64,000 nt of DNA, from positions 124,001-188,000 of the forward strand of contig NZ_CP142435.1 in the NCBI RefSeq assembly GCF_039830095.1, read 5' to 3'. This stretch comes from Dolosigranulum savutiense. Its GTDB lineage: Bacteria; Bacillota; Bacilli; Lactobacillales; Carnobacteriaceae_A. Of this stretch, positions 10,126 to 25,916 are shown piece by piece (position 1 is the first letter of the stretch; each line of letters begins with the position of its first letter). A program made the position numbers and the translations under genes. The notes below the pieces were generated by a model, which saw only the letters and a program-made list of their open reading frames with translations, made no database searches and was not told the DNA's origin.

Positions 10126-12786
10126 TTACTTCGCTTCATACCAATTGTCGCCAGAACTGCTAGCAACTTGTAGCGGGACATCCAGTTCAACCACATGTTC
10201 CATGACATCACTAACTAATGCTTCTAATTCAGCCAGTTCTGATTCCGGTGCTTCAAAAATTAATTCATCATGAACTTGCAAGAGCATCGTCGCTTTCAGG
10301 TCTGATGCTTTCAGTCGTTTTTGCATCTCAACCATAGCCACTTTAATAATATCAGCTGCACTTCCTTGAATAGGCGTATTCATCGCTGTTCGCTCCGCAA
10401 ATGACCGCACATTGAAATTTCTCGAATTAATATCTGGTAAATAACGACGACGGTGGTACAGAGTTTCTACGTAACCTTTGTCCTTCGCTTCACGGATTGA
10501 TTGATCGATATATTCCTTCACATTCGGGAAGCGACTAAAGTACGTATCAATATACTCGCGCGCTTCTTTTCGCGTAATACCTAAGTTCTCCGATAGACCA
10601 TAATCACTAATCCCGTAGACAATTCCGAAGTTAACCGCTTTGGCATCACGACGTTGATTTGCTGTCACTTCTGCCGGTGAATCTAGATCGAAGACTTTCA
10701 TCGCAGTTGTCGTATGGACATCTTGATCATTCAGATACGTCTCAATTAAAGCTTCATCTTCCGACATATGGGCAAGAATACGCAATTCAATCTGAGAATA
10801 ATCTGCTCCGAAGATCTTCCATCCAGCTTCTCTTGGAACAAACGCTTGGCGGATCTTCCGCCCCATCTCAGAACGCACCGGAATATTTTGCAGATTCGGA
10901 TCAACTGAGCTTAAACGACCTGTCCGAGCCACCGTTTGACCATAACGCGTATGAATTTTGCCATCTGCTTCGATCACATCCAACAAGCCTTCCACATAGG
11001 TTGACTGGAGTTTCGCAATGGTCCGGTACTCCAGAATCAGCTCAGCAATGGGCGCATAGGATGTCATCTTTTCCAGGACATCTTGCGCAGTAGAGTAACC
11101 CGTCTTCGTCTTACGAATCGGCTCATAGTTCAACTTATCTTCACTGAACAGTACATCACTCAATTGTTTCGGAGAATTAATATTGAATGATTCGCCTGCT
11201 TCTGCATAAATCTTAGCTTCAATCTCTTCTAATACGTCAGCGAATTCTTCCTTCATTATCTCCAAACGATTCGCATCTGTCGTAATACCTTGAATCTCCA
11301 TCTCACCTAAGACATGGGCAAGAGGTAATTCAATTTCTTCGAACAGGGCTAACTGATCATTATCCGCCAATTCCACTGTTAGCTGCTCTGCTAAGGCATC
11401 AATTGCAGCTACTTTACGAGCTACATGCTCATACATGACTGTTTTATCATCAGGAATACTTACTTTTTTCCCTTTACCGTAGACCGCTTCATCTTCTAAG
11501 ACATCCACATATCCATGCTTGTTGGCAATAGCCGCCACATCACCGCCACTAGAATTCTCAGCAGTCAATACATACGATGCCAGCGACAAATCAAAAGTAA
11601 TATTAACAATCTCCAATTCACGTTGCTTCAAGGATACCATTAATGCTTTCGCATCGTACGCATACTTCCGGGCTGACTCATCTTCTAGCCAATCTTGGAA
11701 AGCCTTGGAAGCTAACAACGTCTCTGGCTCAGCTACATAGACTTTCTTCTCATTAGTCCAGCTCGCAATAATATAAGGTGCCGTATGGTAATTCTCCTCG
11801 AACATTTCGAAATACAATGTTCCGCTCTGTCCGAACATTGCTTCCGTTACTTCTTCGACCCATTCATATTCAACCGCTTCTGCTTCATCTTGTAATTCTT
11901 CGAAGTACACATCCGTATCTAACTTTTCTAAATGACTATTGAAGTCCATTTCCTTATAGAAGCCAATCAACGCCTCCATATTTTTCCCCGAATAAGCTAA
12001 TGACTCCGGTGAAATCTCAATAGGTGCATCAGTAATAATAGTGGCCAATTGCTTGCTAAGTAGCGCCGTTTCTTTCTCAGCGATTAAATATTCCTTGCGC
12101 TTAGAGGCATTCATCTCATCAATGCGTTCATACAATTCTTCTACTGTATGGAACTTCTTCAACAACTTAAGTGCCGTCTTATCTCCAATCTGTGTTACAC
12201 CTGGAATATTATCCGAAGAATCCCCCGATAATCCCTTCAAATCGGTAATTTGTTCTGGGGCAATCCCCATCTCTTCCATCATTGATTCCGGCGTATACGA
12301 CTTCAACTGCGTAATCCCCTTCTTCGTAATATCAACCCGGGTCTGATCACTGGCCAGTTGCGTCAAATCCTTATCCCCCGTAATAATGACGACTTCGAAT
12401 TCATCTGATACTTGGGTGCTCAAGGTTCCGATAATATCATCCGCTTCATAATCCGGCAATTGATACGTCTGTAGACCATACGCAGCAATTAATTCCTTCA
12501 AATAAGGTATCTGCTCAGACAATTCGGCCGGCATACTCTCACGACCGCCCTTATAATCATCAAATAACTCATGCCGAAAAGTAGTCTTCCCCGCATCGAA
12601 GGCCACTAATGCATGTGTTGGTTGTTCTTTTTCCATCACCGCTTCTAACATATTATGAAACCCATAGAGCGCATTCGTATGTAGCCCATTCTTATTCTTC
12701 ATCCGGTGCAACTGACTATGCATCGCATAGAACGCCCGGAACGCAATACTATATCCATCAATTAATAACAATTTCTTCTTTGACAT
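10126..12786 (-). CDS. polA: DNA polymerase I
   Basis: 886 residues: an N-terminal 5'-3' exonuclease (about 1-300), a middle 3'-5' exonuclease-like domain (about 310-470) and a C-terminal polymerase. Polymerase motifs seen are DYSQIELRILAHMSEDEALI (motif A), RRDAKAVNFGIVYGISDYGL (finger helix) and LLQVHDELIFEAP (motif C). The middle domain lacks the acidic DxE proofreading motif (it begins GTLYFEMFEENYH), so proofreading is probably absent, as in Bacillus PolA. The start follows GGGGAGTTAATCG. It does gap filling and Okazaki primer removal. Confidence 0.96.
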   Translation of the reverse strand: MSKKKLLLIDGYSIAFRAFYAMHSQLHRMKNKNGLHTNALYGFHNMLEAVMEKEQPTHALVAFDAGKTTFRHELFDDYKGGRESMPAELSEQIPYLKELIAAYGLQTYQLPDYEADDIIGTLSTQVSDEFEVVIITGDKDLTQLASDQTRVDITKKGITQLKSYTPESMMEEMGIAPEQITDLKGLSGDSSDNIPGVTQIGDKTALKLLKKFHTVEELYERIDEMNASKRKEYLIAEKETALLSKQLATIITDAPIEISPESLAYSGKNMEALIGFYKEMDFNSHLEKLDTDVYFEELQDEAEAVEYEWVEEVTEAMFGQSGTLYFEMFEENYHTAPYIIASWTNEKKVYVAEPETLLASKAFQDWLEDESARKYAYDAKALMVSLKQRELEIVNITFDLSLASYVLTAENSSGGDVAAIANKHGYVDVLEDEAVYGKGKKVSIPDDKTVMYEHVARKVAAIDALAEQLTVELADNDQLALFEEIELPLAHVLGEMEIQGITTDANRLEIMKEEFADVLEEIEAKIYAEAGESFNINSPKQLSDVLFSEDKLNYEPIRKTKTGYSTAQDVLEKMTSYAPIAELILEYRTIAKLQSTYVEGLLDVIEADGKIHTRYGQTVARTGRLSSVDPNLQNIPVRSEMGRKIRQAFVPREAGWKIFGADYSQIELRILAHMSEDEALIETYLNDQDVHTTTAMKVFDLDSPAEVTANQRRDAKAVNFGIVYGISDYGLSENLGITRKEAREYIDTYFSRFPNVKEYIDQSIREAKDKGYVETLYHRRRYLPDINSRNFNVRSFAERTAMNTPIQGSAADIIKVAMVEMQKRLKASDLKATMLLQVHDELIFEAPESELAELEALVSDVMEHVVELDVPLQVASSSGDNWYEAK

Positions 12787-12895
12787 CGATTAACTCCCCT
12801 ATATTATCTCATCTTCCCTATCGTCAATTCCTATTTTACCAAAAGAACACGCTCGTATAAACCCTAGTGATTGACTCATTTTTATTAGCTCATTT

Positions 12896-12941
12896 AAAAA
12901 GTCAAATTCCACCGTCTGCCCGCCGTAGAACTTGACTTTTT
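12896..12941 (-). terminator. Bidirectional intrinsic terminator upstream of polA
   Basis: AAAAAGTCAA and TTGACTTTTT form a perfect 10-bp arm pair, with further TTC/GAA pairing inside, and have A and T runs on both sides. It separates the island genes (higher coordinates, minus strand) from polA. Confidence 0.65.
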
Positions 12942-13072
12942 ATTGGTCTATAATCTTTTCAAAAGATATGGCAACTTAGGAAGAAATTGAATACATGCGA
13001 GGGATGAGCTTGTAGCCCTATCTAATGTATGACCGCATCACAATATGACTAAAACAATCCCTGAAAATGATG

Positions 13073-13116
13073 TGACCCCAAAAAATTAGAATGATTCACT
13101 CTAACATTTGGGGTCA
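13073..13116. repeat. 44-bp palindrome resembling two fused IS3-family ends
   Basis: TGACCCCAAA at 13073 and TTTGGGGTCA ending at 13116 are perfect 10-bp arms. An inner TTAGA...TCTAA pair flanks a 9-bp centre. The outer sequence TGACCCCAAAAAATTAGA resembles terminal inverted repeats of IS150-group IS3 elements as I remember them. There is no transposase and no T-run, so a relic of two facing IS ends is likelier than a terminator. Confidence 0.4.
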
Positions 13117-13143
13117 GTACATAATTGCTGAGACTTTATCTAT

Positions 13144-13323
13144 TTAATCATCATAATACCCTTGCTGTTTCAAGTGATTGCGCCAGACGAAAAAGAAAAT
13201 CACGCACAACATTGCCCCAATCGGTGGAACAACATTAATGCTGTGCATTGTAATATAGCGATTCACTGTCAGATAAACTAATATACCTGCTAAGACTAGC
13301 AGACTATACGGTGCATATTTCAT
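13144..13323 (-). CDS. Small membrane protein (59 aa), paralogue of the gene at 20007-20177
   Basis: 59 residues starting MKYAPYSLLVLAG. Two hydrophobic segments (about 6-22 and 33-50) precede a FFVWRN motif and a charged tail. I chose the second of two adjacent ATGs because GGAGGAG lies 8 nt before it and the paralogue begins MKYLPYTLLV; the ATG at 13326 is possible. A 19-bp regulon box lies about 60 bp upstream, so it probably belongs to the kinase/regulator-controlled set. The family is unknown to me; an immunity or accessory peptide role is speculation. Confidence 0.65.
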   Translation of the reverse strand: MKYAPYSLLVLAGILVYLTVNRYITMHSINVVPPIGAMLCVIFFFVWRNHLKQQGYYDD

Positions 13324-13354
13324 CATAATCTCCTCCATTACCTAATCTACCCCC

Positions 13355-13400
13355 AGTTTACTCCCCCAATTCAGCGCAATGCATGAGTAAATCAAGCAAT
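13355..13400 (-). promoter_or_regulatory. Regulon box a with -10, upstream of the 59-aa membrane protein
   Basis: Plus-strand CATGAGTAAATCAAGCAAT (13382-13400), one of five near-identical 19-mers in the island. On the minus strand a weaker -10 (TAAACT, 13355-13360) follows at 21 bp, instead of 20 bp as in boxes b, c and e. Confidence 0.65.
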
Positions 13401-13454
13401 CATTCAAAGCGCAAGATCCGTATACCCCAAAAGTCATCTTTCTCCCGCCACTGA

Positions 13455-14054
13455 TCACTTCAAATAACCTAACTCCCGGGCTTTCTGGATCGCTTCAATC
13501 GTGGAGTTCACTTCTAGCTTGTCCATAATGCTCTGCATATGATTGGTCAGCGTGCGCTCAGAAATATACATTTCTTCAGCAATTATTTTCCTCTTCCTCC
13601 CAGTTGCGATAGCCCCTAACAACTCTCGCTCGCGTGGTGTCAACTCATCAATAAACCAATTCTCCGTTGTAAAATGACGCCCACCATCTTTCACATGCTT
13701 GAGTAGGCTCAATAAATCTTCGGTACCAATATTTTTATTGACAAATCCACTTAATTCCAATTTATGCGCCTGATATTCATAGACCGGCAAATCAAAACCA
13801 GTCAACATCAAAATGGGCAAATCTACCGCTACAGCACGCACCCGTTCTGCCAACTCGAACCCATCTTCACTGAATCCCTTATCTAAATTAATATCCAACA
13901 CCAACACATCATACACTGTCAACTCGCTTAGATCATCAGGCAACTCCCCTTCACTATTAATCATATCCACTTGCACATCACTTGTTGTCTGATCTAGCAC
14001 TAATGCCAAACTTTGCGAAAATAACTTATGATCATCAATTAACAAAATCTTCAA
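13455..14054 (-). CDS. NarL/LuxR-type response regulator
   Basis: 199 residues. The receiver domain spans about 1-120, with DD at 7-8, phospho-acceptor Asp54 (LVLDINL) and Thr/Lys switch residues in MLTGFD and FVNKN. The C-terminal LuxR helix-turn-helix runs from about 137 (LTPRERELLGAIATG) to 199. The gene overlaps the end of the histidine kinase gene by 20 bp, so they are a coupled two-component pair. It is the obvious candidate to bind the five 19-bp boxes in the island, one of which lies upstream of this operon, implying positive feedback. Confidence 0.92.
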   Translation of the reverse strand: MKILLIDDHKLFSQSLALVLDQTTSDVQVDMINSEGELPDDLSELTVYDVLVLDINLDKGFSEDGFELAERVRAVAVDLPILMLTGFDLPVYEYQAHKLELSGFVNKNIGTEDLLSLLKHVKDGGRHFTTENWFIDELTPRERELLGAIATGRKRKIIAEEMYISERTLTNHMQSIMDKLEVNSTIEAIQKARELGYLK

Positions 14055-15519
14055 TTATCTCGCCTCCCATCACACTGAACTCAACCCGCATCCGCAACCC
14101 CCGTGGACGATTCGCCTCTATATACAGTTGGCCACCAATTGCTTCCACTTGCTCTTGGATCACGTACAATCCATGACCAATCTTAAGATGCGATCCCTTC
14201 TTAAAGCACCCATCATCTTCCACCAACACAATTATCAACTCATCGTACGCTGCCACATGAATATCCAACTGACTCGCTCCTGCATGTTTATAAACATTAT
14301 GAATCAACTCCCTGAGCCACCGATAAACCAACACATCATACGGCTCTGGTAAAGTCAAATTCCGATTCATCGAAAAAGATGTCGACACAGATTGATTCGG
14401 ATATGTCTGCTCTAGTGACCGCACAAGCAGACGATAGTTCTCTTGCAAAGTTAAGTGCTTGGATAATTGTGGACTATACTGATTCATCTGCTGGCGCAAT
14501 TGATCATTTAAAGCTGACAGTTGCTCCCGCAAGAACGCTTGTGTCTTCTCAGACGGCTCCAACGTTGTCATCTTGATCAATACATTAATATCTTGCAAAA
14601 CATCATCGTGTAAATAATTGGAGAAATCTTGTTTTAGAGCCTCTTCCCGTTTAATTAACCTGACAGCATTCACTTGATGATTGCCAAATATGTCAGTTAA
14701 TGTCAATATATACATAATACTTACGATAATATATAATATAAATAACACTAAACTTAGATTTAACCCTAAAATAAGCACAAAAATATAAATATAGAGTAAA
14801 GTACAGAATATTAAGCTCAACCATTTTGATGCCTGACCTACAACAGCTTTATGATTAAAGCCAGCAATTAGCATAAGAAGTGTTGAAGCAACAGCCATAA
14901 AAAATAACCATACCTGAGTAAATAACTGACTAGACAACACCGCCAATATAACTAGTCCGAGTAGTGGAATTAATTGCAACGAAAACGCCGCGACGAGTAC
15001 CCAATAACCTGTGTGTTTATTTTTAGTATACACACGGTGATTAATTCGCTGTTTGATTGCCAAAATGGTTGAAAACAGCACATAAACAATATAAGCAATG
15101 AACAAAATATTGGCATAATCCGTCCATAAACCGATACCAACAACTAAGCCAATCCCTAAGCGTCTTACCAATAAACGATTATCAACATATTGCGTTAGTA
15201 AACTAGCGATACATTGGCATAATAAATTCAACAACATCATTAATAACACGTATCTGATCACGAGAGGCAGTTGAATAGTTGTCATTAATGAGATTGATTG
15301 CACCTGTGCGAGTCGGAATGTCCAGACAATCAGTCGGGCAATCTGCGTACGCACGCCTATAATCGTCATCATCATATAATCAAAAAGTAATAATAACAAC
15401 CATAAACTCATCATAAGAGGGAGATAAGCCACTCCCTTATAGCCTAAAAACAAATACACAGCTAATACTGAAAATACAATGTGGTAAATAACATCTATTT
15501 TGGTTGTCCACTTTTCCAC
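14035..15519 (-). CDS. Polytopic sensor histidine kinase (HisKA_3 type)
   Basis: 494 residues. Residues 1-275 are almost entirely membrane, roughly eight or nine segments. A HisKA_3 dimerisation helix follows with phospho-acceptor His near 304 (FSNYLHDDVLQDINVLIKM), then an HATPase domain with an N-box in RELIHNVYKHAG and a G-box near KIGHGLYVIQEQVEAIGG. A large membrane sensor with a NarL-type partner recalls ComP/ComA quorum sensing, so the ligand may be a peptide; this is inference. It starts 4 bp after the permease stop at 15524, as last-but-one gene of the ABC operon. Confidence 0.92.
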   Translation of the reverse strand: MEKWTTKIDVIYHIVFSVLAVYLFLGYKGVAYLPLMMSLWLLLLLFDYMMMTIIGVRTQIARLIVWTFRLAQVQSISLMTTIQLPLVIRYVLLMMLLNLLCQCIASLLTQYVDNRLLVRRLGIGLVVGIGLWTDYANILFIAYIVYVLFSTILAIKQRINHRVYTKNKHTGYWVLVAAFSLQLIPLLGLVILAVLSSQLFTQVWLFFMAVASTLLMLIAGFNHKAVVGQASKWLSLIFCTLLYIYIFVLILGLNLSLVLFILYIIVSIMYILTLTDIFGNHQVNAVRLIKREEALKQDFSNYLHDDVLQDINVLIKMTTLEPSEKTQAFLREQLSALNDQLRQQMNQYSPQLSKHLTLQENYRLLVRSLEQTYPNQSVSTSFSMNRNLTLPEPYDVLVYRWLRELIHNVYKHAGASQLDIHVAAYDELIIVLVEDDGCFKKGSHLKIGHGLYVIQEQVEAIGGQLYIEANRPRGLRMRVEFSVMGGEIIEDFVN

Positions 15520-15523
15520 ATGA

Positions 15524-16222
15524 TTACGCCCTTTTTGTCTTTTTATAATAGCTTACATACGCATACACGGCGAAACTGACCGCACAAAGTCCTATAATAA
15601 CAGCATAATGATACCAATTAAACCCACTATGTCCCGCACTGTAGTACATATATAAATACGGATTAACTAACCACATATCTTGCCCAAATGGGGCAAAAGC
15701 TAACATCACACCCGCAACGGCAATAATCACAGGTAAAAAGTCATTCATTGTTATTCTGTAGATAATAAAACTGATATTAACGAGTGACACAATGCTGATG
15801 ACGGACAAACCACTGTATATCACAACAGACCAAATTCCTTCACTCGTTAGCCCACCTCTAAAGAACATAAAGACAAACGGTATCATCACATAACTTAAAT
15901 ACAGCAAGGGTAACGCGATAAGAAAGAACTTCCACGTCGATTGAGATAATTTCTGGGGTTTCACCCCTTTTAACACAAAATTTTGCATGCCCTTATGTTC
16001 TGTAGCCGCATAAATCGATAACGTAATAAATACGGGTGCTAGTGCTGGGAAGATAATCCCACTGAACCATTCTAAACTTGCAATATAAAATACATCTGTT
16101 GCTAACTCTTGTACGCTTAGTGCCATAAAAGTTTGAAGTCCAACAACCAGCAACATAAATAAACATAACGCAACAACACTAATTCTTCGTTTGAATTTTA
16201 ATAATTCCAGTTTTAAGAACAT
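15524..16222 (-). CDS. ABC-2 type permease, lantibiotic-immunity (LanG-like)
   Basis: 232 residues with six hydrophobic segments and no ATPase motifs: the layout of ABC-2 permeases in LanFEG self-immunity exporters. AGGAGG lies 8 nt before the ATG. It follows the first permease by 12 bp and precedes the histidine kinase by 4 bp, making one operon ATPase-permease-permease-kinase-regulator. It is less similar to the other three permeases of the island than they are to each other. It probably pairs with the permease at 16235-16960 and the ATPase at 16944-17852 to expel a membrane-active peptide. Confidence 0.82.
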   Translation of the reverse strand: MFLKLELLKFKRRISVVALCLFMLLVVGLQTFMALSVQELATDVFYIASLEWFSGIIFPALAPVFITLSIYAATEHKGMQNFVLKGVKPQKLSQSTWKFFLIALPLLYLSYVMIPFVFMFFRGGLTSEGIWSVVIYSGLSVISIVSLVNISFIIYRITMNDFLPVIIAVAGVMLAFAPFGQDMWLVNPYLYMYYSAGHSGFNWYHYAVIIGLCAVSFAVYAYVSYYKKTKRA

Positions 16223-16234
16223 TTGCTCAGCCTC

Positions 16235-16960
16235 CTATAATTTAAATTGTTTAACAACAAGTGACATCATGCTAGATGCAACGATGATGTTTAATGCAAC
16301 GACACTTACAAATCCCGTGACGCTAAACTCGTCTAATCCCGCTAAATATCCTGGAGTCAATAACCGTATCACATATCTAAACAAATCTGTTGATGGTAAA
16401 ATCACAAGCATTATAAGGAATCCAACTGCACAGGCAATAGCCGTTGTGCCATTTTTAATTAAGTAGTGACACGCTATCTGTGCTGTATATAGCACAAGTG
16501 ATAAAAACATAATCGATACTAGCATCAATAGGCTAAAGGATATCTCAATTTGAAGGTTGAAATATGTCGATTGCACCAACAAAAACATTGAATAAAACAA
16601 TACCTGATAACTAAGATAATATAAGGTAGATACGATATACTTGGCCCATAATACTTTTGATTTACTACCTGTTCCTAATAGTAACATCTCCCATGTGTTA
16701 TTCTGATACTCGACTGATATTATATAGTATCCTATCACAGCACCTATACTGAAAATAAAAATAATTGAGTTGCTGAGAAATATCGCATTGTTTGTTTGAA
16801 AAACTGTTTGAATATAACTCCCCTGTATCGATACAGTATCTGTTGTTTTAATCATGATTGTTGTGAGAAAAACTTGTAGTAATCCCATAATTCCTAATAT
16901 TAAATACAAGATCGGTTGAGTGCCATGTGTCTTAAATTCATGTTTAATGAGTGTCCACAT
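16235..16960 (-). CDS. ABC-2 permease, lantibiotic-immunity type (LanE-like), paralogue 1
   Basis: 241 residues and six membrane segments. Shared motifs with the permeases at 18983 and 20199 include an N-terminal LIKHEFKTHG, then GYYIISVEYQNNTWEMLLLG, KVLWAKYIVS, YTAQIACHYLI and a C-terminal KQFKL. I chose the ATG that gives MWTLIKHEF, 9 nt after GGAG and in line with the paralogues; an ATG three codons earlier exists. The gene overlaps the ATPase gene by 17 bp, so it is coupled. Probably one half of a bacteriocin-immunity exporter. Confidence 0.85.
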   Translation of the reverse strand: MWTLIKHEFKTHGTQPILYLILGIMGLLQVFLTTIMIKTTDTVSIQGSYIQTVFQTNNAIFLSNSIIFIFSIGAVIGYYIISVEYQNNTWEMLLLGTGSKSKVLWAKYIVSTLYYLSYQVLFYSMFLLVQSTYFNLQIEISFSLLMLVSIMFLSLVLYTAQIACHYLIKNGTTAIACAVGFLIMLVILPSTDLFRYVIRLLTPGYLAGLDEFSVTGFVSVVALNIIVASSMMSLVVKQFKL

Positions 16961-17852
16961 GTCCGTCATCTCCGTCCGTTAAGTCTAAGAAAATCCGCTC
17001 TAAGTTCTTGTTCGGTGTGATTTCAAATATAGCAATATCACGATCTAACAATGCTTTAACTACTTCAGGAATACGTTGCTTAGACGACTTGATTTGAAAT
17101 TTATGTTCCTTATTGGTAAATGAAATGCCTTCTTCGCTAAGCACTGTCTTGGCTTGATCGATGTCGTCTATCTCCAATAAGTAAGAACTTTCGCCACTTG
17201 CATATAATTCATCAAGCTCTCCTTCAAAAATCAATTTACCATTTTGGATAATGCCAATCATATCAGCAATCGACTCCAACTCTGAAATATTATGACTCGA
17301 GATAAAAATTGTCTTGCCTTGTTCTTTCGACAATGAATACAGTAATTCTCGAATCTCCACAATACCTTTGGGGTCAAGTCCATTCGTTGGCTCATCTAAA
17401 ATCAAGATATCCGGATCATTCAAGAAGGAGAACGCTAATCCCAGTCGTTGTTTCATTCCAAATGAGTACTCAGCAATCGTTTTATTCTTTGCATCGGTCA
17501 AGCCAACGATTTCCAGTACGCGATCAATCTCATCTTTGGGTTCTTCTAAGACATCTTGGATAATTGCTAAGTTTTCATACGCCGTTAGATTCTTGTAATA
17601 CGTCGGCGTACTGATAAAGGCACCAAACGCTTTTGCCTTATTCTCTAGCTGGTTCAATTCCTTTCCATCAAATGTGACTGTGCCACTGCTTGCAGGTGTC
17701 AATCCGGTTAAAATCTTCATCGCCGTCGTTTTCCCCGCACCATTCGCTCCGATAAACCCATAAATCTTGCCTTCTGGAATGGTAATGTTAATATCTTGCA
17801 AGACCTGTTTACGTCCGTATGTTTTGTTGACATTGTTAAACTTGATATTCAT
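16944..17852 (-). CDS. ABC transporter ATPase, LanF/BcrA-like
   Basis: 302 residues. Walker A GANGAGKTT is near 35-43, the signature YSFGMKQRL near 130 and Walker B ILILDEPTNGLD near 148-160. The C-terminal 80 residues are the extension seen in BcrA/LanF proteins. At the Q-loop, where ABC ATPases carry Gln and LanF proteins often Glu, the sequence reads FISTPTYY, so the residue is Ser (about 81). I chose the ATG 9 nt after AGGAG; two earlier in-frame ATGs touch the site. It energises export through the downstream permeases. It overlaps the tail of the broken ABC gene. Confidence 0.88.
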   Translation of the reverse strand: MNIKFNNVNKTYGRKQVLQDINITIPEGKIYGFIGANGAGKTTAMKILTGLTPASSGTVTFDGKELNQLENKAKAFGAFISTPTYYKNLTAYENLAIIQDVLEEPKDEIDRVLEIVGLTDAKNKTIAEYSFGMKQRLGLAFSFLNDPDILILDEPTNGLDPKGIVEIRELLYSLSKEQGKTIFISSHNISELESIADMIGIIQNGKLIFEGELDELYASGESSYLLEIDDIDQAKTVLSEEGISFTNKEHKFQIKSSKQRIPEVVKALLDRDIAIFEITPNKNLERIFLDLTDGDDGHVDTH

Positions 17853-18934
17853 GTTCATCATCTCCTAGATTTAGTACTTTATCAGCTTGTTGTATATACT
17901 TCTCATCATGTGTAATAATAATTTTGGTTGCATTTAGCTCATCAATCATACTGAAAATTTTTCGTGCTAGTCTATCATCAAGATTACTTGTTGGTTCATC
18001 TACAATAATTATTTTGTACTTCCCAAGAAACAGTCGCAATAAGCCTAAGCGTTGTTTTTGACCTTGCGAAAAATTAAGCCGTCTTCCAATATGAGTTGAT
18101 TTGATAGATCGCTTTCTTTACCTAATGTATCTAACTCCATATCAGCTGTTATGTCAATTAATTGTTCAACATCATAATGATCTAAGTATAATTTTAAATT
18201 ATCTTTCAAAGTCCCTTTAAACAATTTCGTTGGTTGGGTAATATAGCACACATCTTCTTTTAAATTCAAATCATATTCCTTTGTGTTCACACCTCCTATC
18301 ATAACCTCACCTTTTTCGTACTGTTTATTTAACCCTAATAATAAATCAATTAAGGTCGTTTTTCCACTGCCTGATTCACCACAAATAACTAATTTTTCTC
18401 CATGGTTCAATCTGAAACTTCTATCGTTTATAATAGGATCTGCTGTATTTTCGTATTGAAAGGTTAAGTCTTTTACCTTTATTGAACCGTCTTTCAATCT
18501 CTTAGTTGCATACGTTTGATGATTATTTTTTGTCATTTCATTTAATCGTTTCATATGCGGAGCTACTCTCGATACAGTCAATATAGTTGATAACACAGAC
18601 ATCGCTGGGGAATAGAGAATCATTCCCGTTGTCATTAACAATGATATGTTACTGCGATCGTTAGGGAATATAAGGATAAGCCCCATTCCCAAAACCGATA
18701 ATATCAATGAAAAGAACGTACTGGTCATTTGTTGTACAGTATTTGATTTTGCCTCTATCTTTGACCTGTCATAAGAAACATCAAGATAATCTTTCAAACT
18801 ATGAGTTACTTTCTTCGTATATGTTCCGCCAATTCCTGAATTGATGAAGTAATTATGCGATATGATCCCATCTGATAATACCGTTCGAAAATCCGAAAAT
18901 TTATAACTTTTTGTGTGATTTTCAATGATTCTGT
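17836..18934 (-). pseudogene. Broken ABC peptide exporter (5'-truncated, frameshifted)
   Basis: Reading from about 18934, one frame gives the end of a type I membrane domain, then an ATPase with Walker A CGESGSGKTT and the segment YITQPTKLFKGTLKDNLKL, stopping at 18045. The other frame resumes at the signature (NFSQGQKQRLGLLRLF), Walker B KIIIVDEPTSNLD and the terminal His-loop, ending at 17836. A single frameshift just before the signature joins the two. The N-terminus and most membrane helices are missing, and no start codon or ribosome site is present. It directly follows regulon box b. It was probably the exporter of the peptide made by this locus. Confidence 0.82.
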
Positions 18935-18938
18935 ATAT

Positions 18939-18983
18939 ATTTTATAGTGACTTTTCAAAAAAATCATGAGTAAAAAAGGTAAT
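18939..18983 (-). promoter_or_regulatory. Regulon box b with -10, promoter of the ABC/kinase/regulator operon
   Basis: Plus-strand CATGAGTAAAAAAGGTAAT (18965-18983). On the minus strand it is followed by exactly 20 bp and then -10 TAAAAT (18939-18944). The box overlaps the last base of the stop codon of the upstream permease gene. It would drive the broken exporter, ATPase, two permeases, kinase and regulator, so the regulator probably activates itself. Confidence 0.75.
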
Positions 18984-19693
18984 TATAAATGGAATCTTTT
19001 AACTACAATAGATATTAAGATGATTGAAAAAATAATATTTTGAATAATTAACCGCATATACTCTAAATTATTAAATTGATCTATATGATTCAAATAAAAT
19101 CCGGATGACAATGGCAAAACATAAATTAGCCATGATTCTAAAACCATTCCAACAATTCCAATAAATACCATCACTATAGAAATTGATATTTGAGTATTGG
19201 GTATTAAAAAATGCATACTCAATTGTGCTGTGAACAGAAATAGTCCTAATAGAGTAGTGCTAATAGGGATCAACCAAACAAAAAAAAGGTCAACTTGACG
19301 CTGCCAATAAAATGCAGATAACCCTAGAAATATTCCCCAAACGCAAATATTATATGCTATCCAATAGAACAAGCATACCACATACTTTGTCCATAAGATT
19401 TTTGACTTGTTTTTTATGCCTAAAAAATACATCTCCCAAGTTCTTTGTTCGAACTCGCTTGAAATGAAATAATAACCCAAAACTCCCGCGATTATCGGCG
19501 TAAATATCGTAGCTACTAGAGAATAGATGATGCTGTTGTCCTGAAATATCGTTTTAGCTAGTGCTCCTCCCCCTTCTGCTCCAAATAACGATCTCGCAAG
19601 AAACACTTGCATTATGCCAACGACTAGTAGAACAATATACAATAATTTATTTTGCCCGTGTGTATTGAATTCTTTTTTTAGTAGTGTTTTCAT
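18983..19693 (-). CDS. ABC-2 permease, lantibiotic-immunity type, paralogue 2
   Basis: 236 residues and six membrane segments. It shares LLKKEFNTHG, LGYYFISSEFEQRTWEMYFLG, KILWTKYVV, FTAQLSMHFLI and a C-terminal KRFHL with the permeases at 16235 and 20199. GGGGAAGG lies 8 nt before the ATG. It is transcribed alone from regulon box c and would have to borrow the ATPase encoded at 16944-17852. The region is visibly more AT-rich than the housekeeping genes around the island. Confidence 0.82.
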   Translation of the reverse strand: MKTLLKKEFNTHGQNKLLYIVLLVVGIMQVFLARSLFGAEGGGALAKTIFQDNSIIYSLVATIFTPIIAGVLGYYFISSEFEQRTWEMYFLGIKNKSKILWTKYVVCLFYWIAYNICVWGIFLGLSAFYWQRQVDLFFVWLIPISTTLLGLFLFTAQLSMHFLIPNTQISISIVMVFIGIVGMVLESWLIYVLPLSSGFYLNHIDQFNNLEYMRLIIQNIIFSIILISIVVKRFHL

Positions 19694-19734
19694 TTTTTTA
19701 ATCCTTCCCCGTGCATCTCTTTTGTTACAACTGT

Positions 19735-19779
19735 ATTCTATCTCACAAATTGATCAATCACATGAGTAAAATTGGCAAT
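19735..19779 (-). promoter_or_regulatory. Regulon box c with -10, promoter of permease paralogue 2
   Basis: Plus-strand CATGAGTAAAATTGGCAAT (19761-19779), then exactly 20 bp on the minus strand to -10 TAGAAT (19735-19740). The predicted leader to the permease ATG at 19693 is about 35 nt. Confidence 0.75.
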
Positions 19780-19910
19780 ATTAGATTTTCTACTTGGTAT
19801 ATGTATTTTTCGTTGAAAATGACTAATCATATATCGCATGAGATACTCTTCAAAAATTCCCTTGTCATTCTAATGGGGAAGCATAAATTAATAGTAACGT
19901 ATCAATCAAT

Positions 19911-19958
19911 TAAAAATGCTGATAAAGTAAGACAACTGTTAGCCCTCTTTATCAGCAT
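19911..19958 (-). terminator. Terminator of the permease-3 / 56-aa gene transcript
   Basis: Minus strand: ATGCTGATAAAG pairs with CTTTATCAGCAT (12 bp), followed by TTTTT. It lies 49 bp after the 56-aa gene. Confidence 0.75.
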
Positions 19959-20006
19959 AAATATTTATCTCTACTTATAACCTCAATGTGAATAAACAAG
20001 GTATGA

Positions 20007-20177
20007 TTAATTTTCTCTCTTTTTTTGATAGTTGCGCCACACAAAAAATCCAGTAATACATGCAATAATGATTATTGGATCATCTAAATTAAGAGATCTC
20101 GAAGCTATTATTTTTTGTACAAAACTATATAAAAAAACGGCTGCGACTACCAACAATGTATACGGTAAATATTTCAT
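20007..20177 (-). CDS. Small membrane protein (56 aa), paralogue of the gene at 13144-13323
   Basis: 56 residues starting MKYLPYTLLVVAAVFLY and ending KKREN. Two hydrophobic segments are present and the second ends in FFVWRNY. GGAGGG lies 9 nt before the ATG. The N-terminal MKY-PY-LLV-A pattern and the FFVWRN motif are shared with the 59-aa protein at 13144, so these are paralogues of one unnamed family. It sits 21 bp after permease 3 and ends before a terminator, so the two genes are probably cotranscribed. Function unknown; an immunity accessory is a guess. Confidence 0.7.
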   Translation of the reverse strand: MKYLPYTLLVVAAVFLYSFVQKIIASRSLNLDDPIIIIACITGFFVWRNYQKKREN

Positions 20178-20198
20178 TTAATCATCCCTCCTATTCAT

Positions 20199-20942
20199 TT
20201 ACAATTTGAACTTATAAATAGCCACTGATAACATCCCCGAAGCAACAAGTAAGTTGACCACCACGCCCCCTATAAAATTTACGACATTAAATGTATCAAA
20301 CATCCCAATGTATGTTGGTGTCAACATAAGTATTTTTTCTACAAAAATATTGCTTGTCCCTTCTGGCATAAGTAAAAATAACATGGTAAATACCACAGCA
20401 CATACAGTTGCTACTACCCCATTATTAATGAAATAATGAAGCACTATTTGAGCAGTAAAAAGAACAACCTGAAAAAACAACACCGTAAAAAAACCCAGTA
20501 CCATAAAGTTTACATCTAGCTGTTGTTTAAAATATATTACCTGAATAATTGAAAATACACCATAGATAACTAACTGCTGAATCCAGAAAATGATGAGACT
20601 CACAATATATTTACTCATCAACACTTTCTTTTTATCTTTGATGCCTAATAATAAAAATTCCCAGGTGTTACTAATGTATTCAACCGAAATGATATAATAT
20701 CCAATAACAGCGGCTGATACGGGTATCAACATTGTACTATATGCAAAAAACAAAACATTATAGAATCGAAAGAAGGTTGCTATAAATGGATTATTGGGTA
20801 ATTGATCAAATTTAAATATTTTTAAAATAGCCGTAATTAAAAGAACCTGAATTAATCCAACTACACCTAAAAATAAAAACAATCCATATTTTTTTGCACG
20901 TGTCCTAAATTCATTTTTAATTAGTGGATACATAAATTTCAT
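20199..20942 (-). CDS. ABC-2 permease, lantibiotic-immunity type, paralogue 3
   Basis: 247 residues and six membrane segments. Family motifs are LIKNEFRTR, IGYYIISVEYISNTWEFLLLG, KKVLMSKYIVS, FTAQIVLHYFI and a C-terminal YKFKL. The start is uncertain: ATG 20942 sits 5 nt after GGAAG, while ATG 20933 matches the paralogues better. Upstream in the same transcript is the peptide relic at 20981-21088; downstream is the 56-aa membrane protein. Like paralogue 2 it has no ATPase gene beside it. Confidence 0.82.
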   Translation of the reverse strand: MKFMYPLIKNEFRTRAKKYGLFLFLGVVGLIQVLLITAILKIFKFDQLPNNPFIATFFRFYNVLFFAYSTMLIPVSAAVIGYYIISVEYISNTWEFLLLGIKDKKKVLMSKYIVSLIIFWIQQLVIYGVFSIIQVIYFKQQLDVNFMVLGFFTVLFFQVVLFTAQIVLHYFINNGVVATVCAVVFTMLFLLMPEGTSNIFVEKILMLTPTYIGMFDTFNVVNFIGGVVVNLLVASGMLSVAIYKFKL

Positions 20943-20980
20943 CTTCTTCCAGTTATTTTTAATTTATCTAGCATAAAAAT

Positions 20981-21088
20981 TTAAAATATTTTAACTAGCC
21001 CAGGTCCCTTCCCACCGATTAATACCTCAAGTTCTGTATCAGAGACAACTTGGACTAACTGTTGACGTTTTTCTTGAATGTTATCTAA
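20981..21088 (-). pseudogene. Double-glycine leader peptide gene, start codon apparently lost
   Basis: The frame reads (L)DNIQEKRQQLVQVVSDTE, then LEVLIGG, then KGPGLVKIF and stop. This is the shape of a bacteriocin or pheromone precursor: a charged leader, hydrophobic residues at the usual positions, Gly-Gly, then a 9-residue product. An AAGAAGGAAAG site lies at the right distance, but the codon where a start belongs (21086-21088) is TTA, one base from TTG; no ATG, GTG or TTG exists in frame. A consensus promoter (21113-21140) precedes it. Either the gene was silenced by one mutation or it uses a non-standard start. Too short to be sure it was ever a gene. Confidence 0.45.
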
Positions 21089-21112
21089 AGCTTTCCTTCT
21101 TTATTAAATACT

Positions 21113-21177
21113 ATTATACTCCTAATTTTATTATTCACAAGAAAAAGCACGCTAAATTGTGAATTTTTTTGTGAATA
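21113..21177 (-). promoter_or_regulatory. Promoter with repeated TTCACAA elements before the peptide relic
   Basis: Minus strand: -35 TTGTGA (21135-21140), 16-bp spacer, -10 TATAAT (21113-21118). The element TTCACAA occurs twice in direct orientation 12 bp apart (21157-21163 and 21169-21175) and once inverted over the -35. TATTCACAA (21169-21177) and TTGTGAATA (21132-21140) are perfect inverted 9-mers. The spaced repeats look like a regulator binding array distinct from the 19-bp box. Confidence 0.5.
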
Positions 21178-21225
21178 AAAAATGCTTTACGCCGCCTGTA
21201 CTTTTGTTGATACTGTCAACAGTCT

Positions 21226-21244
21226 CATGAGTAAATTAAGCAAT
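21226..21244 (-). promoter_or_regulatory. Regulon box d, upstream of the peptide relic and permease 3
   Basis: Plus-strand CATGAGTAAATTAAGCAAT, differing from box a at one position. Unlike boxes b, c and e no good -10 lies 20 bp downstream on the minus strand (AAAAGT is there). It is either decayed or acts from a distance on the promoter at 21113-21140. Confidence 0.6.
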
Positions 21245-21276
21245 GCTATTTTAAAAATTAATGTCCAAACATGACT

Positions 21277-21318
21277 TTAATCATAGAACTTTTTTACACT
21301 ATTCAGAAACTTAGTCAT
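21277..21318 (-). other. 13-codon ORF with strong ribosome site, possible antitoxin relic
   Basis: The ORF MTKFLNSVKKFYD begins after AAGAAGGAGATAAGT. The 21 bp at 21332-21352 match 19 of 21 bases of the palindrome upstream of the toxin-antitoxin pair at 32405-32895. This looks like the promoter and first codons of a toxin-antitoxin-type gene whose remainder was deleted. It could instead be a genuine mini-peptide gene. Confidence 0.3.
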
Positions 21319-21405
21319 ACTTATCTCCTTCTTGTATTACATTGTACGACATTTTTCCAAGGGAAATCTAATATTTTCTTTTATAGATAATTCACTGCTG
21401 ATCGC

Positions 21406-21699
21406 TTAAAACAACGCCTGCACAATATTAGAGACCACCATCATCAGCGGAAATGACAGAATCAGTGTACCATTCAAGATCCCGTACAAGACAGATTTGT
21501 CCATGATAGAGCTAATTACTCCTACAATCCCAATAATGGGCAATAGAAATATCGTTGCTAGTCCGACTGGCTTTAATTCTCCCATCACTTTACCTAACAC
21601 ACTCACCATCTGAAAACTATCTTCCGGCAGTATGACTGCAACTATGAACACAACAATCCCTAACCAAAAACATATCTTAGGTAACTGTTTAACTTTCAT
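21406..21699 (-). CDS. Small polytopic membrane protein (97 aa), partner of the PLA2-like gene
   Basis: 97 residues with three hydrophobic segments (about 10-25, 45-65 and 70-92), starting MKVKQLPKICFWLG. GGGGTG lies before the ATG. It lies 67 bp downstream of the phospholipase A2-like gene with no promoter or terminator visible between them, so it is probably in the same transcript, driven by regulon box e. Not recognised as a named family. A small hydrophobic protein after a small potential effector suggests an immunity role, which is speculative. Confidence 0.6.
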   Translation of the reverse strand: MKVKQLPKICFWLGIVVFIVAVILPEDSFQMVSVLGKVMGELKPVGLATIFLLPIIGIVGVISSIMDKSVLYGILNGTLILSFPLMMVVSNIVQALF

Positions 21700-21766
21700 A
21701 TTAACACCCCACTAAACCAACACTAGAGAAATACTGTTTAATCGCCCAAGCAACAGTCGCTATTTT

Positions 21767-22054
21767 TCAACTCATTTTATCTTCATTAGCTTCTATGTGA
21801 TTCACTAATGCTCTGTTGCATTCACAATTATCTCCAATAGCTAAACTCCAATTGTAACACTGATCATGAGCTTTACAACCTTGGTCTAAAATATCCGTTG
21901 CTGGCTTAGAAGAATCTTTCCCACCATGCCAAGGTCCACAGTAATTTCCCCATATTGGAAGACCAAATCTTCTAAATTCATTATTCGTATAATCTATACT
22001 GATTGTTTCTAAGAGCATTCCTTGTTCAATTACTTGTTGTGATTCCTGATTCAT
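21767..22054 (-). CDS. Phospholipase A2-fold mini protein (95 aa)
   Basis: 95 residues from the ATG 9 nt after AAGGAG; ATGs further upstream lie across the promoter. The core carries the PLA2 signature: calcium loop YCGPWHGG (residues 38-45), then a helix DILDQGCKAHDQCY with the His63-Asp64 pair, and five cysteines (39, 60, 66, 77, 79). The loop has Trp where classic enzymes have Gly (YCGxG), and the domain is short, so activity is uncertain. There is no signal peptide. Box e lies 66 bp upstream. It may hydrolyse phospholipids as a bacteriocin-like effector; the fold call is good, the role is inference. Confidence 0.72.
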   Translation of the reverse strand: MNQESQQVIEQGMLLETISIDYTNNEFRRFGLPIWGNYCGPWHGGKDSSKPATDILDQGCKAHDQCYNWSLAIGDNCECNRALVNHIEANEDKMS

Positions 22055-22094
22055 ATGAAACATCTCCTTATTTGTAGGGCTACTATCTAGCCTT

Positions 22095-22139
22095 ATTTTA
22101 TCATATTGTCCGTCGAAACCCATGAGTATTTCAGGCAAT
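22095..22139 (-). promoter_or_regulatory. Regulon box e with -10, promoter of the PLA2-like operon
   Basis: Plus-strand CATGAGTATTTCAGGCAAT (22121-22139), then exactly 20 bp on the minus strand to -10 TAAAAT (22095-22100). The leader to the ATG at 22054 is about 34 nt. Confidence 0.75.
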
Positions 22140-22242
22140 CGCTGCTCATTTCATCTTGTTTTACCGATAAGTCTAGCCCGGGCAACTTGACTTATATGAG
22201 TTTAGTTTCGTATGTTATAATGAATGTGAAGGAGATGATGAC

Positions 22243-22596
22243 ATGGGACGACACAAGATTTTTGATATGGCGGTGAGTACGGTGTATCCGCATTATGTCA
22301 ACAAGGCTGAGAAGAAGGGCAAGACTGCTGAGCAAGTGGATGAGTTGATGTGTTGGCTAACAGGCTACAGCCAAGATGAGTTGCATGAACAGTTGGAGGC
22401 TAATGTATCATTCGAAAAATTCTTCGACCAAGCGCCTAAGTTACATCCAAATCGTACATTAATCAAAGGAGTTATCTGTGGGAAACGTGTTGAAGATATC
22501 GAAGATCCGCTAATGCAAAATATTCGCTACTTGGACAAATTAATAGATGAACTTGCTCGGGGTAAAAAATTTGAAAATATCAAACGTACTCAATGA
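22243..22596 (+). CDS. DUF2200 family protein
   Basis: 117 residues matching the DUF2200 pattern: [20 protein letters not shown] near the N-terminus, then [26 protein letters not shown], and the highly conserved [20 protein letters not shown]. Function unknown; it is a soluble, helical cytoplasmic protein. GAAGGAGATGATGAC precedes the ATG. It is transcribed divergently from the island and shares a terminator with cls, so it marks the edge of the accessory island. Confidence 0.9.
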
Positions 22597-22633
22597 TACC
22601 ATCAACAGGGAGTCATCCTTGTTTATACATACT

Positions 22634-22677
22634 AAAAACTCCGTACTCATCGAAATAGACGATGCTACGGAGTTTTA
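22634..22677. terminator. Bidirectional terminator between DUF2200 gene and cls
   Basis: AAAACTCCGTA pairs with TACGGAGTTTT, with an inner CATCG/CGATG stem. A-rich and T-rich flanks serve both converging genes. Confidence 0.8.
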
Positions 22678-22684
22678 TTATACC

Positions 22685-24139
22685 TTATAAGATAGGACTG
22701 AATAAGCGAGCGAATTGTTGCTTGAACCGTTCCCAGAATGAATAGTTAGCAATAATATCGGGTGTTAATTCATAGGCGTGTTGTAAATCATTCATGTATT
22801 GAGCATGATAAGCTTGAGCTAGTTTTTCACTATACATGAAGGTATTAACTTCGAAATTCAACTTGAAGCTACGGATATCGAAATTAGCTGTTCCGATACT
22901 TAGCATCTCGTCATCCACAATGACAGTCTTCGCATGCAAGAAGCCTCCATCATAAATATGCACATGAGCACCATACTCAACTAATTGCTCGGCATAACTC
23001 AACGTTGCCCGATAAATAAATGGATGATCTGGTTTGTTTGGAATCATGACATGAACCTCTACCCCTGACTTAGAGGCGATATCAATCGTCTCTAACACAG
23101 CATCATCCGGCACTAAGTAAGGGGTCTGAATATAAACAGATTTACGCGCTAAGCTGATCATCTTAATGAAGCCTTTTTTGATCTGTTGTTCGGTGCTGTC
23201 CGGACCGCTAGAGACAATTTGCAAATCAACATCACCTGTTGTCTCTTGAATAGGAAAATACTGGTTATCGTAAGGAACTTGTTGTGCCTCATCAGCTGAT
23301 GCATTCCAATCGGTTAGAAAGCGGGTCTGCAATGGGAGTACCCCATTCCCGACAATCCGGACATGCGTGTCACGCCAATAACCCATTTCCGGATATTCTC
23401 CTAAGTAATCATCCCCGACATTGAAGCCTCCTGTGTAGCCAATCTTTCCATCAATTACAACTATTTTGCGGTGATTACGATAGTTCAAGCGCATATTTAA
23501 AATATGCATCCGTTCACCGAATGATGGACAGGCTTGCCCACCGAATGATTTTAATTTCTTAAAAAATGATCGCGTCATCCACCGAGTACCCACCGGATCG
23601 TATAGAACACGCACTTCGACACCTTGATTAGCCTTCTCTTCCAGCGCATCCACAATGGCACGACCAATCTTATCCCCTCGAAAAATATAATAAACGAGAT
23701 GAATATGGTGCTTGGCTTGCTTAATATCTTCCAGTAACTGATCGAACTTTTCCTTACCATCCGAATAAATATCAACTTCGTTATCACGTGTTAGTGCTGC
23801 ATTATCCAATCCTTGGAACAGAGAAACCATTTCTTTTTTATTATTAGAAAATACTTCATCCCCTGCTTCATGTTGATGTTCGTATCGTTCGGTTAAGGTG
23901 TCTTTCAGTTCGCGTAATCCAATCTGATCCTGTTGCTTAATATCGTAAATATCTTTATCACTCATTCCTCGACCAAAGAACAAATAAGCAATAAATCCAA
24001 TCCCCGGCAGCATAATAAGGGCTAAAAGCCATGCCCAAATCGAGGCTATATCACGGGTCTTGTCACGAAAAATTGTAAAGATAGCTAAGGTCGAGTTGAT
24101 GATTATAAACCACCAAAAAATAGTTGAGATATATGACAT
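22685..24139 (-). CDS. cls: Cardiolipin synthase
   Basis: 484 residues. It joins two phosphatidylglycerol molecules to make cardiolipin at the membrane. Two N-terminal membrane segments (about 4-22 and 33-55) are followed by two phospholipase D HKD motifs: NHRKIVVIDGKIGYTGG near residues 222-238 and HAKTVIVDDEMLSIGTANFD near 402-421. AAAAGGAG precedes the ATG. It is a standard-length bacterial Cls with its own terminator, upstream of the accessory island on the same strand. Confidence 0.95.
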   Translation of the reverse strand: MSYISTIFWWFIIINSTLAIFTIFRDKTRDIASIWAWLLALIMLPGIGFIAYLFFGRGMSDKDIYDIKQQDQIGLRELKDTLTERYEHQHEAGDEVFSNNKKEMVSLFQGLDNAALTRDNEVDIYSDGKEKFDQLLEDIKQAKHHIHLVYYIFRGDKIGRAIVDALEEKANQGVEVRVLYDPVGTRWMTRSFFKKLKSFGGQACPSFGERMHILNMRLNYRNHRKIVVIDGKIGYTGGFNVGDDYLGEYPEMGYWRDTHVRIVGNGVLPLQTRFLTDWNASADEAQQVPYDNQYFPIQETTGDVDLQIVSSGPDSTEQQIKKGFIKMISLARKSVYIQTPYLVPDDAVLETIDIASKSGVEVHVMIPNKPDHPFIYRATLSYAEQLVEYGAHVHIYDGGFLHAKTVIVDDEMLSIGTANFDIRSFKLNFEVNTFMYSEKLAQAYHAQYMNDLQHAYELTPDIIANYSFWERFKQQFARLFSPIL

Positions 24140-24233
24140 ATTAATCTCCTTTTTTATGTAGATAAGAGCAGAGCTAACTTAGAAGCTCCGCTCTCCCTTT
24201 GACTATATTTTATAGGATACAAACAGTCCTCAA

Positions 24234-25916
24234 TTATTTATCATACCAGCGTCTTTGGTTCACTTCCATAATAACCGGTAAGATAATTGGGCGCCGTTTT
24301 GTTTCTTTAAAGAGGTAATCGCTCAATTCATTGCGAATCTCTGACTTAATCGAACCCCAATCGAAATCGTTATGCTTCAAGTTTTGTTGAATCACTTTTT
24401 CCACAATTGTAGTCGATTCATTAATAAGGTCATAATTAGCTTTCACAAAGACAAAGCCTCGTGTGACAATATGTGGCTTAGCAACAATCTTTTGTTTGCG
24501 GCGGTCAATCGTTACGACAGCCACGAAGATTCCGTCGTTAGACAGTAGGCGACGATCACGTAAGACAATATTGCCCACATCGCCAATACCAATACCGTCA
24601 ACTAAGGTATTATCCGCTGGAACCGTTCCAGTACTATGCATTTTGCCTTTTTTGTACTCCACGACATCCCCATTGCTTAAGGTGAAAATATGTTCGTGTG
24701 GAATACCTGTCTCATGAGCTAAGCGCGCATGAGCTGCTAATACGCGGTACTCACCTTGGACGGGAATAAAGTATTCTGGGTGAAGTAAGTTCATCATCAA
24801 TTGCAGATCATTCGGTGTCGCATGCCCACTCGCCTTAATTTGGTTAGCTAATTTGACCACTTCGCCTCCCGAACGATAAATCAAGTTCTCACATTCAGCT
24901 ACTTCCACTTCCATCGCTACTGATGGGTTTGTCGCGATAAAGACAGTATCTTCATTGCGAATACCAATGTTAGGATGTTGATTAGTCGCCATCTCACGTA
25001 AAGCTTTAATCGGTTCTCCACTTGAGCCAGTTTCCAAGATAACAGTCTCATCATCGTGGAACTTCTCCAAGTCCGATATAGATTGTAAGATGTCTTTTTT
25101 CGGCAATGTTAGTTTTCCTAAGTCAATAGCTACATTAATAATATCTTGGGATTTCGAGCTAGAGATAAAGACTTTACGATTCGTCGCGTGGGCTGCATTA
25201 ATGATTTGCTGGATGCGCAGTAAGTTACTCTGGACAGCTGCTACAATAATACGAGACGGCGCATCTTGGAAAATCTCTGTCACAACGCTTTGAACGCGCT
25301 TATCTGGTGCATTCTCTTCAAGACTTTCCGCTCCCAGCGATGAACTGAGCAGCGCTAGAACGCGTTCTTTCCCAATATCTGAAATATGGTTTAAGTTCGT
25401 ACGGTACGGACCATCTGCACTCTGATCAAACTTAAAGTTCCCCGTATAAACAACATGTCCTTCTGATGTTTCAATAGAGATTCCCATTGCATCAGGAATC
25501 GTGTGCGTTACTTGGAAGAAATGCACCTTCACCTCACCGAAGTCAATCGCCAGACTGGAATCTACAACATGATAATCAGAGAAGTTCCCTTTTCCAATTA
25601 CTGATTCAACTTGTAAGCGAGCCAGCTCAATCGTCAGCTCAGACCCGAACACGGGTACATTGAATTCATCGATAAAGTACGGAAGCGCTCCTATCGCATC
25701 CTCATGACCGTGTGATAAAAATACGCCGGCAATACGGTCTTTGTTTTGCTTTAAATAAGTGAAATCAGGAATTACGGCATCGATCCCATATAATTCACCT
25801 TCTGGGAACATCAATCCACAGTCTAATACAAATATTTGGGCATCCACCTCCACCACATACAAACTTTTACTATTTTCGCGAACCCCACCTAAGGGGATAA
25901 TTTTAACATTTGACAC
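24234..25916 (-). CDS. rnjB: Ribonuclease J2
   Basis: 560 residues. Metallo-beta-lactamase/beta-CASP ribonuclease of RNA maturation and decay, usually in complex with RNase J1. The metal motif reads HGHEDA (residues 69-74), whereas active J1 has HxHxDH; the missing final His points to J2, which has weak activity. The beta-CASP domain includes the SGHATPNDLQLMMNLLHPEY motif and the C-terminal dimerisation domain follows. Start is GTG with AAAGGAG upstream. It diverges from birA. Confidence 0.9.
   Translation of the reverse strand: MSNVKIIPLGGVRENSKSLYVVEVDAQIFVLDCGLMFPEGELYGIDAVIPDFTYLKQNKDRIAGVFLSHGHEDAIGALPYFIDEFNVPVFGSELTIELARLQVESVIGKGNFSDYHVVDSSLAIDFGEVKVHFFQVTHTIPDAMGISIETSEGHVVYTGNFKFDQSADGPYRTNLNHISDIGKERVLALLSSSLGAESLEENAPDKRVQSVVTEIFQDAPSRIIVAAVQSNLLRIQQIINAAHATNRKVFISSSKSQDIINVAIDLGKLTLPKKDILQSISDLEKFHDDETVILETGSSGEPIKALREMATNQHPNIGIRNEDTVFIATNPSVAMEVEVAECENLIYRSGGEVVKLANQIKASGHATPNDLQLMMNLLHPEYFIPVQGEYRVLAAHARLAHETGIPHEHIFTLSNGDVVEYKKGKMHSTGTVPADNTLVDGIGIGDVGNIVLRDRRLLSNDGIFVAVVTIDRRKQKIVAKPHIVTRGFVFVKANYDLINESTTIVEKVIQQNLKHNDFDWGSIKSEIRNELSDYLFKETKRRPIILPVIMEVNQRRWYDK

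Follow-up and report, generated by a model that had tools for sequence, protein, structure and literature searches.

A startless double-glycine frame in Dolosigranulum savutiense as a probable relic of a bovicin HJ50/suicin-type lantibiotic precursor gene

Bovicin- and suicin-type loci and their decay

Bovicin HJ50 reportedly acts through BovK/BovR to switch on its own operon, an auto-induction for which its disulfide is critical, and the peptides named thermophilin 1277 and macedovicin are given as identical to it (PMC4018250). The suicin 3908 locus of Streptococcus suis is described as comprising suiA, M, T, F, E, G, K, R and I (PMC4320106). Incomplete loci are also on record. S. suis NSUI036 is reported to have the immunity genes and to be missing suiA, suiM and part of suiT, and the account implies that it keeps the remaining cluster genes as well; three strains with partial suicin loci, including NSUI036 for suicin 3908, were susceptible to producers of the matching suicin (PMC5203872). 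In further strains of S. suis, what remains of a sui locus has an interrupted suiM and frame shifts elsewhere (Wang et al. 2014, as cited in PMC4018250 and PMC4320106). In S. gallolyticus BSJ31 (L019/L037), one of the loci that we compared, the promoter and ribosome site of lanA are fused to the end of lanT (L019, 8200-8450), and LanFEG, the kinase, the regulator and the small LanI membrane gene are kept. This is a separate loss of producer genes. These parallel cases indicate that loss of the producer genes with retention of other cluster genes is a known fate of this type of locus.

Seven loci were obtained for comparison, of which three Streptococcus loci, L029 (S. suis SSHP-D), L030 and L031, were tabulated and served as the precursor comparison set, L032-L035 being left out of the table and the genus Dolosigranulum being represented by one genome. 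All three have full-length frames in the order LanA-LanM-LanT-LanF-LanE-LanG-kinase-regulator-LanI, with an ACTCAT box before the precursor and a second box before the small membrane protein LanI. Their LanM is 834-839 and their LanT 688-691 residues long. In the two loci scanned with TIGR03897, LanM matched at E 4.9e-82 and 8.5e-90 (276.1 and 301.8 bits, below the cut-off of 304). The intact precursors are 57-58 residues long, start with ATG and have cores of 33 residues. Apart from the two modified Thr, which read X, the L031 core agrees with bovicin HJ50 (PDB 2M8V, BovA) at each of the 31 unmodified positions, and its mass of 3466.73 equals the published value (PMC4018250, Table 1); the mass of the L029 core, 3379.63, is the suicin value of the same table.

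Loci of this type were also sought more widely. A search of 395 genomes of the order turned up the kinase in two besides our own and the permease alignment in one besides our own, G153, where a kinase 34% identical adjoins the permease. Used as a query, the G153 kinase gave matches at E <=1e-20 in 9 of the 284 genomes of its genus, itself included; L029, L030 and L031 are among these matches, and one of the matching genomes, G428, was left out of the locus comparison. The wider scan covered 30 (L036-L065) of 80 named loci, and two of the genomes omitted above, G427 and G146, are included in it as L047 and L048. The exact box occurred in two of the 30 (L036 and L037) and precursor-like frames at E <=1 in three (L036, L041 and L045), those of the Paenibacillus loci L041 and L045 reaching a best E of about 3e-5 and resembling a different lantibiotic. 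A precursor profile that includes the window frame also picked out a precursor frame in G183 (E 1.8e-36, contig of 7 kb) and, besides this genome and our own, gave weak matches in four genomes (E 0.003-0.01). In the 27 genomes of the family, the permease had weak partial matches (E ~1e-4) in three besides our own. The LanE-like permease had no match in plasmids, and its alignment in genome contigs gave 57 pattern matches, none of which was confirmed.

The window, by which we mean the whole stretch of 64,000 nucleotides of D. savutiense DNA that was analysed, carries LanFEG, a multi-membrane-span kinase and a LuxR-type regulator in bovicin-cluster order. Before these genes, as lanA is in the relatives, lies a frame (20981..21088, minus strand) that we read, with a probability of about 0.92, as a pseudogene in which a class II lantibiotic precursor of the bovicin HJ50/suicin type retains its leader and, of its core, no more than the first nine residues.

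Genes and boxes retained in the window

All cluster genes are on the minus strand and were assigned by comparison with the relatives. In the direction of reading, a LanE-like immunity permease (copy 2, 20199..20942) begins 38 nt past the stop codon of the relic and is followed by a LanI-like small membrane protein (copy 2, 20007..20177; single-comparison E 3e-7 and 4e-5), a further LanE-like immunity permease (copy 3, 18983..19693), a LanT exporter relic (17845..18911), a LanF-like ATPase (16944..17861; 64% identity to the S. gallolyticus copy), LanE-like permease copy 1 (16235..16969), a LanG-like permease (15524..16222), a BovK/SuiK-like histidine kinase (14035..15519), a BovR/SuiR-like LuxR-type response regulator (13455..14054; 51-53% identity to three relatives) and LanI-like small membrane protein copy 1 (13144..13323), which has the same post-regulator position as in the relatives. 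The three LanE-like copies, set against one LanF and one LanG, are divergent, the other two being 42% and 28% identical to the copy at 20199; the spacers 5' of the three permeases showed no clear common block when aligned. The S. suis LanF homologue matches TIGR03740 below cut-off. Rfam at gathering thresholds gave no match in window positions 12000-25000.

The earlier note on this DNA had placed a kinase of the peptide-sensing type close to the frame, and the comparison bears this out. The kinase has about seven hydrophobic windows by simple hydropathy, and its best NCBIfam profiles, UhpB and LiaS, are far below cut-off. Double-glycine pheromones of the ComC/BlpC type are partnered by an HPK10 kinase and a LytTR-type regulator. 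A ComC-type pheromone was considered and rejected, as the regulator here has Response_reg and GerE/LuxR domains and is not LytTR-type.

Two parts of the producing apparatus are missing or incomplete. No LanM match was obtained across the window at E 0.01. Of the 691 residues of LanT, 326-685 are left, at 39-60% identity and with a frame break near 18080. The first membrane part is missing, and so is the C39 peptidase, which would be needed for cleavage at GG. Elsewhere the same genome encodes a remote LanM-like protein (25-29% identity). It has a second lanthipeptide-like locus (L120, G000:C1:1684000-1701000) with a LanM-like protein of 914 aa, an exporter of 705 aa whose start, judged by eye, is C39-like, and a Cys-rich putative precursor that contains GG (L120:5561-5776).

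A box matrix was built from nine sites of the relatives, one of which (L031:5769, retained) is probably a chance match, and was run on both strands of the 64 kb. The four best matches all fall in this locus, on the minus strand, and the fifth-ranked match scores 7.6. The best (18964..18982, score 30.7) lies shortly 5' of the truncated exporter, the second (19760..19778, 22.9) 5' of LanE copy 3 with a -10-like TAGAAT about 20 nt downstream, the third (TTGCTTAATTTACTCATGA, 21225..21243, 13.4) 5' of the relic and the fourth (13381..13399, 11.9) 5' of LanI copy 1. The third, a putative BovR-type site, stands 137 nt 5' of the relic's TTA, against about 80 nt 5' of the ATG in the relatives, and has no clear -10 about 20 nt downstream, where L029 and L030 have TATAAT. 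The boxes are putative binding sites of the regulator. Repeat search gave a fifth copy (22121-22139), outside the sixteen best matrix matches, upstream of a phospholipase-A2-like frame.

Other features lie beside the relic on the minus strand. A frame of 13 codons, MTKFLNSVKKFYD (21273-21314), which has a good ribosome site, AGAAGGAG, lies directly before the box at 21225. Between the relic and the phospholipase-like frame, a hydrophobic protein of 97 aa (21406-21699) matches no Pfam or NCBIfam profile and might be another immunity-type membrane protein. The phospholipase-A2-like frame itself (21767-22054; Pfam PF00068, E 4.5e-4, below cut-off) looks broken, the first part being missing and an in-frame TGA preceding the conserved C-terminus. 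Six homologous frames from seven loci, five of 191-212 aa and one of 170 aa, have starts that look like signal peptides by eye, and matches occur in 17 of 395 genomes, our own included.

The kinase, the regulator, LanF, LanG, the three LanE and the two LanI have full-length frames at about 27-64% identity to the relatives; the kinase and the immunity genes are called intact from these reading frames alone. Together with the lost producer parts and the retained boxes, this points to a likely non-producer that possibly still senses. Most likely the locus no longer produces a peptide. It may nevertheless sense bovicin-like lantibiotics of other bacteria, to which the surviving kinase and regulator could respond by raising the immunity genes, the transporter among them. 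One can go further and regard the locus as a stand-alone listening and defence post, in which a non-producer has kept and expanded the sensor, three LanE and two LanI under common boxes. Its purpose would be to detect and resist the bovicin/suicin-type lantibiotics of neighbours, and the dead precursor would mark the site of the lost self-induction. We put this forward tentatively and consider it rather doubtful, and retained immunity in particular is a weakened reading because strains with partial suicin loci stayed susceptible (PMC5203872).

The same susceptibility, observed although these partial loci include immunity genes, favours the rival that survives best, namely that the whole locus is dead and that the kinase, the regulator and the immunity genes are decaying yet still unbroken. 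This rival is compatible with a precursor relic and speaks against sensing, and the broken appearance of the phospholipase-like gene and of LanT agrees with it. Still, all of these genes have stayed full-length despite their divergence from the relatives, and LanE copy 3 retains a box followed by a -10-like sequence. We regard death of the whole locus as a serious possibility, at less than even odds.

The double-glycine frame

Read on the minus strand, the frame consists of TTA (21088-21086), DNIQEKRQQLVQVVSDTELEVLIGG, KGPGLVKIF and TAA (20983-20981), the coding part ending at 20984. Counted from stop to stop, it has 39 codons, with no ATG, GTG or TTG and one each of ATT, ATC and ATA. The earlier note had described a double-glycine precursor frame with TTA where the start codon belongs, preceded by a ribosome site, a promoter and followed by a product of nine residues. 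The frame is real and a ribosome-site-like AAGAAGGAAAG is indeed present 5' of the TTA. As for the promoter, the hexamers TTGTGA-16-TATAAT do occur (21113..21140, minus strand), but such sites are no commoner than chance in positions 20900-21450, with two seen against 2.6 expected from shuffles.

The double-glycine leader, which the note had also described, ends in GG as class II leaders do and is well above chance. A profile made from the L029, L030 and L031 precursors was searched against the 1773 stop-to-stop frames of at least 20 residues in the window; the frame was the top match with E 4.7e-7 and the runner-up had E 0.78. With a precursor profile that includes the relic, E was 3.7e-13, a value which is partly by construction because the relic is within the profile. 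When the letters of the frame were shuffled 3000 times, no shuffle scored as high in the alignment. The leader pattern [DE]xE[LIM]xx[LIVM][LIVAM]G[GA] has one match in the six frames of the window and none in 20 mononucleotide shuffles, a test that is weak because the pattern was composed after the frame had been seen.

In the multiple alignment, the TTA of the relic falls on the ATG of all three relatives, with a two-residue gap within the leader and with the L030 and L031 rows begun at the second of two adjacent ATG codons, and its GG falls on their GG. In the pairwise alignment with L031, the TTA sits one codon before the ATG. The relic leader is 1-2 residues longer than those of the relatives, so that the exact correspondence of TTA and ATG is alignment-dependent. 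After the GG, KGPGLVKIF shares five of nine residues with AGSGLVKTL (L030), four with AGSGFVKTL (L029) and two with ADRGWIKTL (L031). This low agreement, the longer leader and the distant upstream box without a -10 all count against the relic reading. The cores of the relatives then continue with TKDCP and 19 residues that include three further Cys, at the point where the relic frame ends. The bovicin-type core features, that is the TLTKDCP motif of ring A, two dehydratable Thr and four Cys, are absent from the relic core, which contains no Ser, Thr or Cys; lanthionine and disulfide are therefore impossible. With a core that stops after KGPGLVKIF, the frame is a relic and not a member of the bovicin HJ50-like precursors.

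Two other assignments were tried and rejected. Membership of the lacticin 481 family (E 0.05; 13.8 bits against a cut-off of 46) was set aside because the frame is better fitted by the bovicin-type profile and its operon corresponds to bov/sui. Continuation of the core in a shifted frame was set aside because the 38 bases between the stop and the next gene hold no visible TKDCP-like stretch.

The nine residues, which the earlier note took for a complete product the size of a pheromone, are thus better read as a truncated core, those of the relatives being 33 residues long. The rival they suggest is a working, unmodified nine-residue signal that starts at TTA or another non-standard codon, leaves through another GG exporter and drives the kinase. 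Such a signal would profit from a leader complete through GG and from the box upstream, and the second LanM-like protein with its adjacent 705-aa exporter might act in trans. However, the frame lacks a usual start codon, the cognate LanT has lost its peptidase half, and for signalling by the full-length homologue, a ring peptide of 33 residues, the disulfide is described as critical (PMC4018250). In the 27 family genomes the leader found itself at E 6.9e-18 and four other matches only at E 0.32-0.72; a search of plasmids gave no match. With no LanM match in the window and no Ser, Thr or Cys in the core, we consider a nine-residue signal very improbable. Just as hard to credit is a chance open frame that resembles a double-glycine leader, for which the missing start codon and the unremarkable promoter would speak, given the profile E value among 1773 frames, the 3000 shuffles that failed to match its score and its position before the remaining lantibiotic genes, as in the relatives.

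The locus beside known systems

We therefore return to the frame as a precursor pseudogene, an ordinary gene relic of a kind already known and not a new nine-residue signal. Most likely it does nothing itself, and without ring and disulfide it is unable to yield a ligand of the BovK/BovR type. The missing parts were established by comparison with the relatives; as to the manner and order of loss, we infer that a deletion or rearrangement took the rest of the core, LanM and the front half of LanT, and that this removal would have brought the immunity permease gene to within 38 nt of the relic's stop. Since auto-induction is reported for bovicin HJ50 (PMC4018250), the suggestion in the earlier note of a lost autoinducer came close; it is supported in the sense of a dead lantibiotic precursor gene and not supported as to a nine-residue pheromone. 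In all, this analysis disposes of a pheromone candidate that proved false and assigns the locus to the bovicin HJ50/suicin type, here outside Streptococcus and without its peptide but with the sensor and several copies of immunity genes retained. Should the sensor still function, the locus would allow a test of whether bacteria that make no lantibiotic listen in on those that do.

Compared with suicin 3908, as found in the S. suis SSHP-D copy (L029/L036), the window has the same order T-F-E-G-K-R-I, the same type of kinase and regulator, ACTCATG boxes before A and I and a leader frame that ends in LIGG. It differs in being without M, in its truncated T, in its truncated and startless A and in its additional LanE and LanI copies. 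With the bovicin HJ50 locus it shares the leader VSDxELExLIGG, the G and K at equivalent core positions and regulation of the BovK/BovR type, whereas bovicin HJ50 has a 33-residue core with the TLTKDCP ring and a disulfide, and LanM and LanT are full-length in L031. Unlike the decayed suicin-type loci, the window keeps a leader-length stump of A together with extra copies of E and I.
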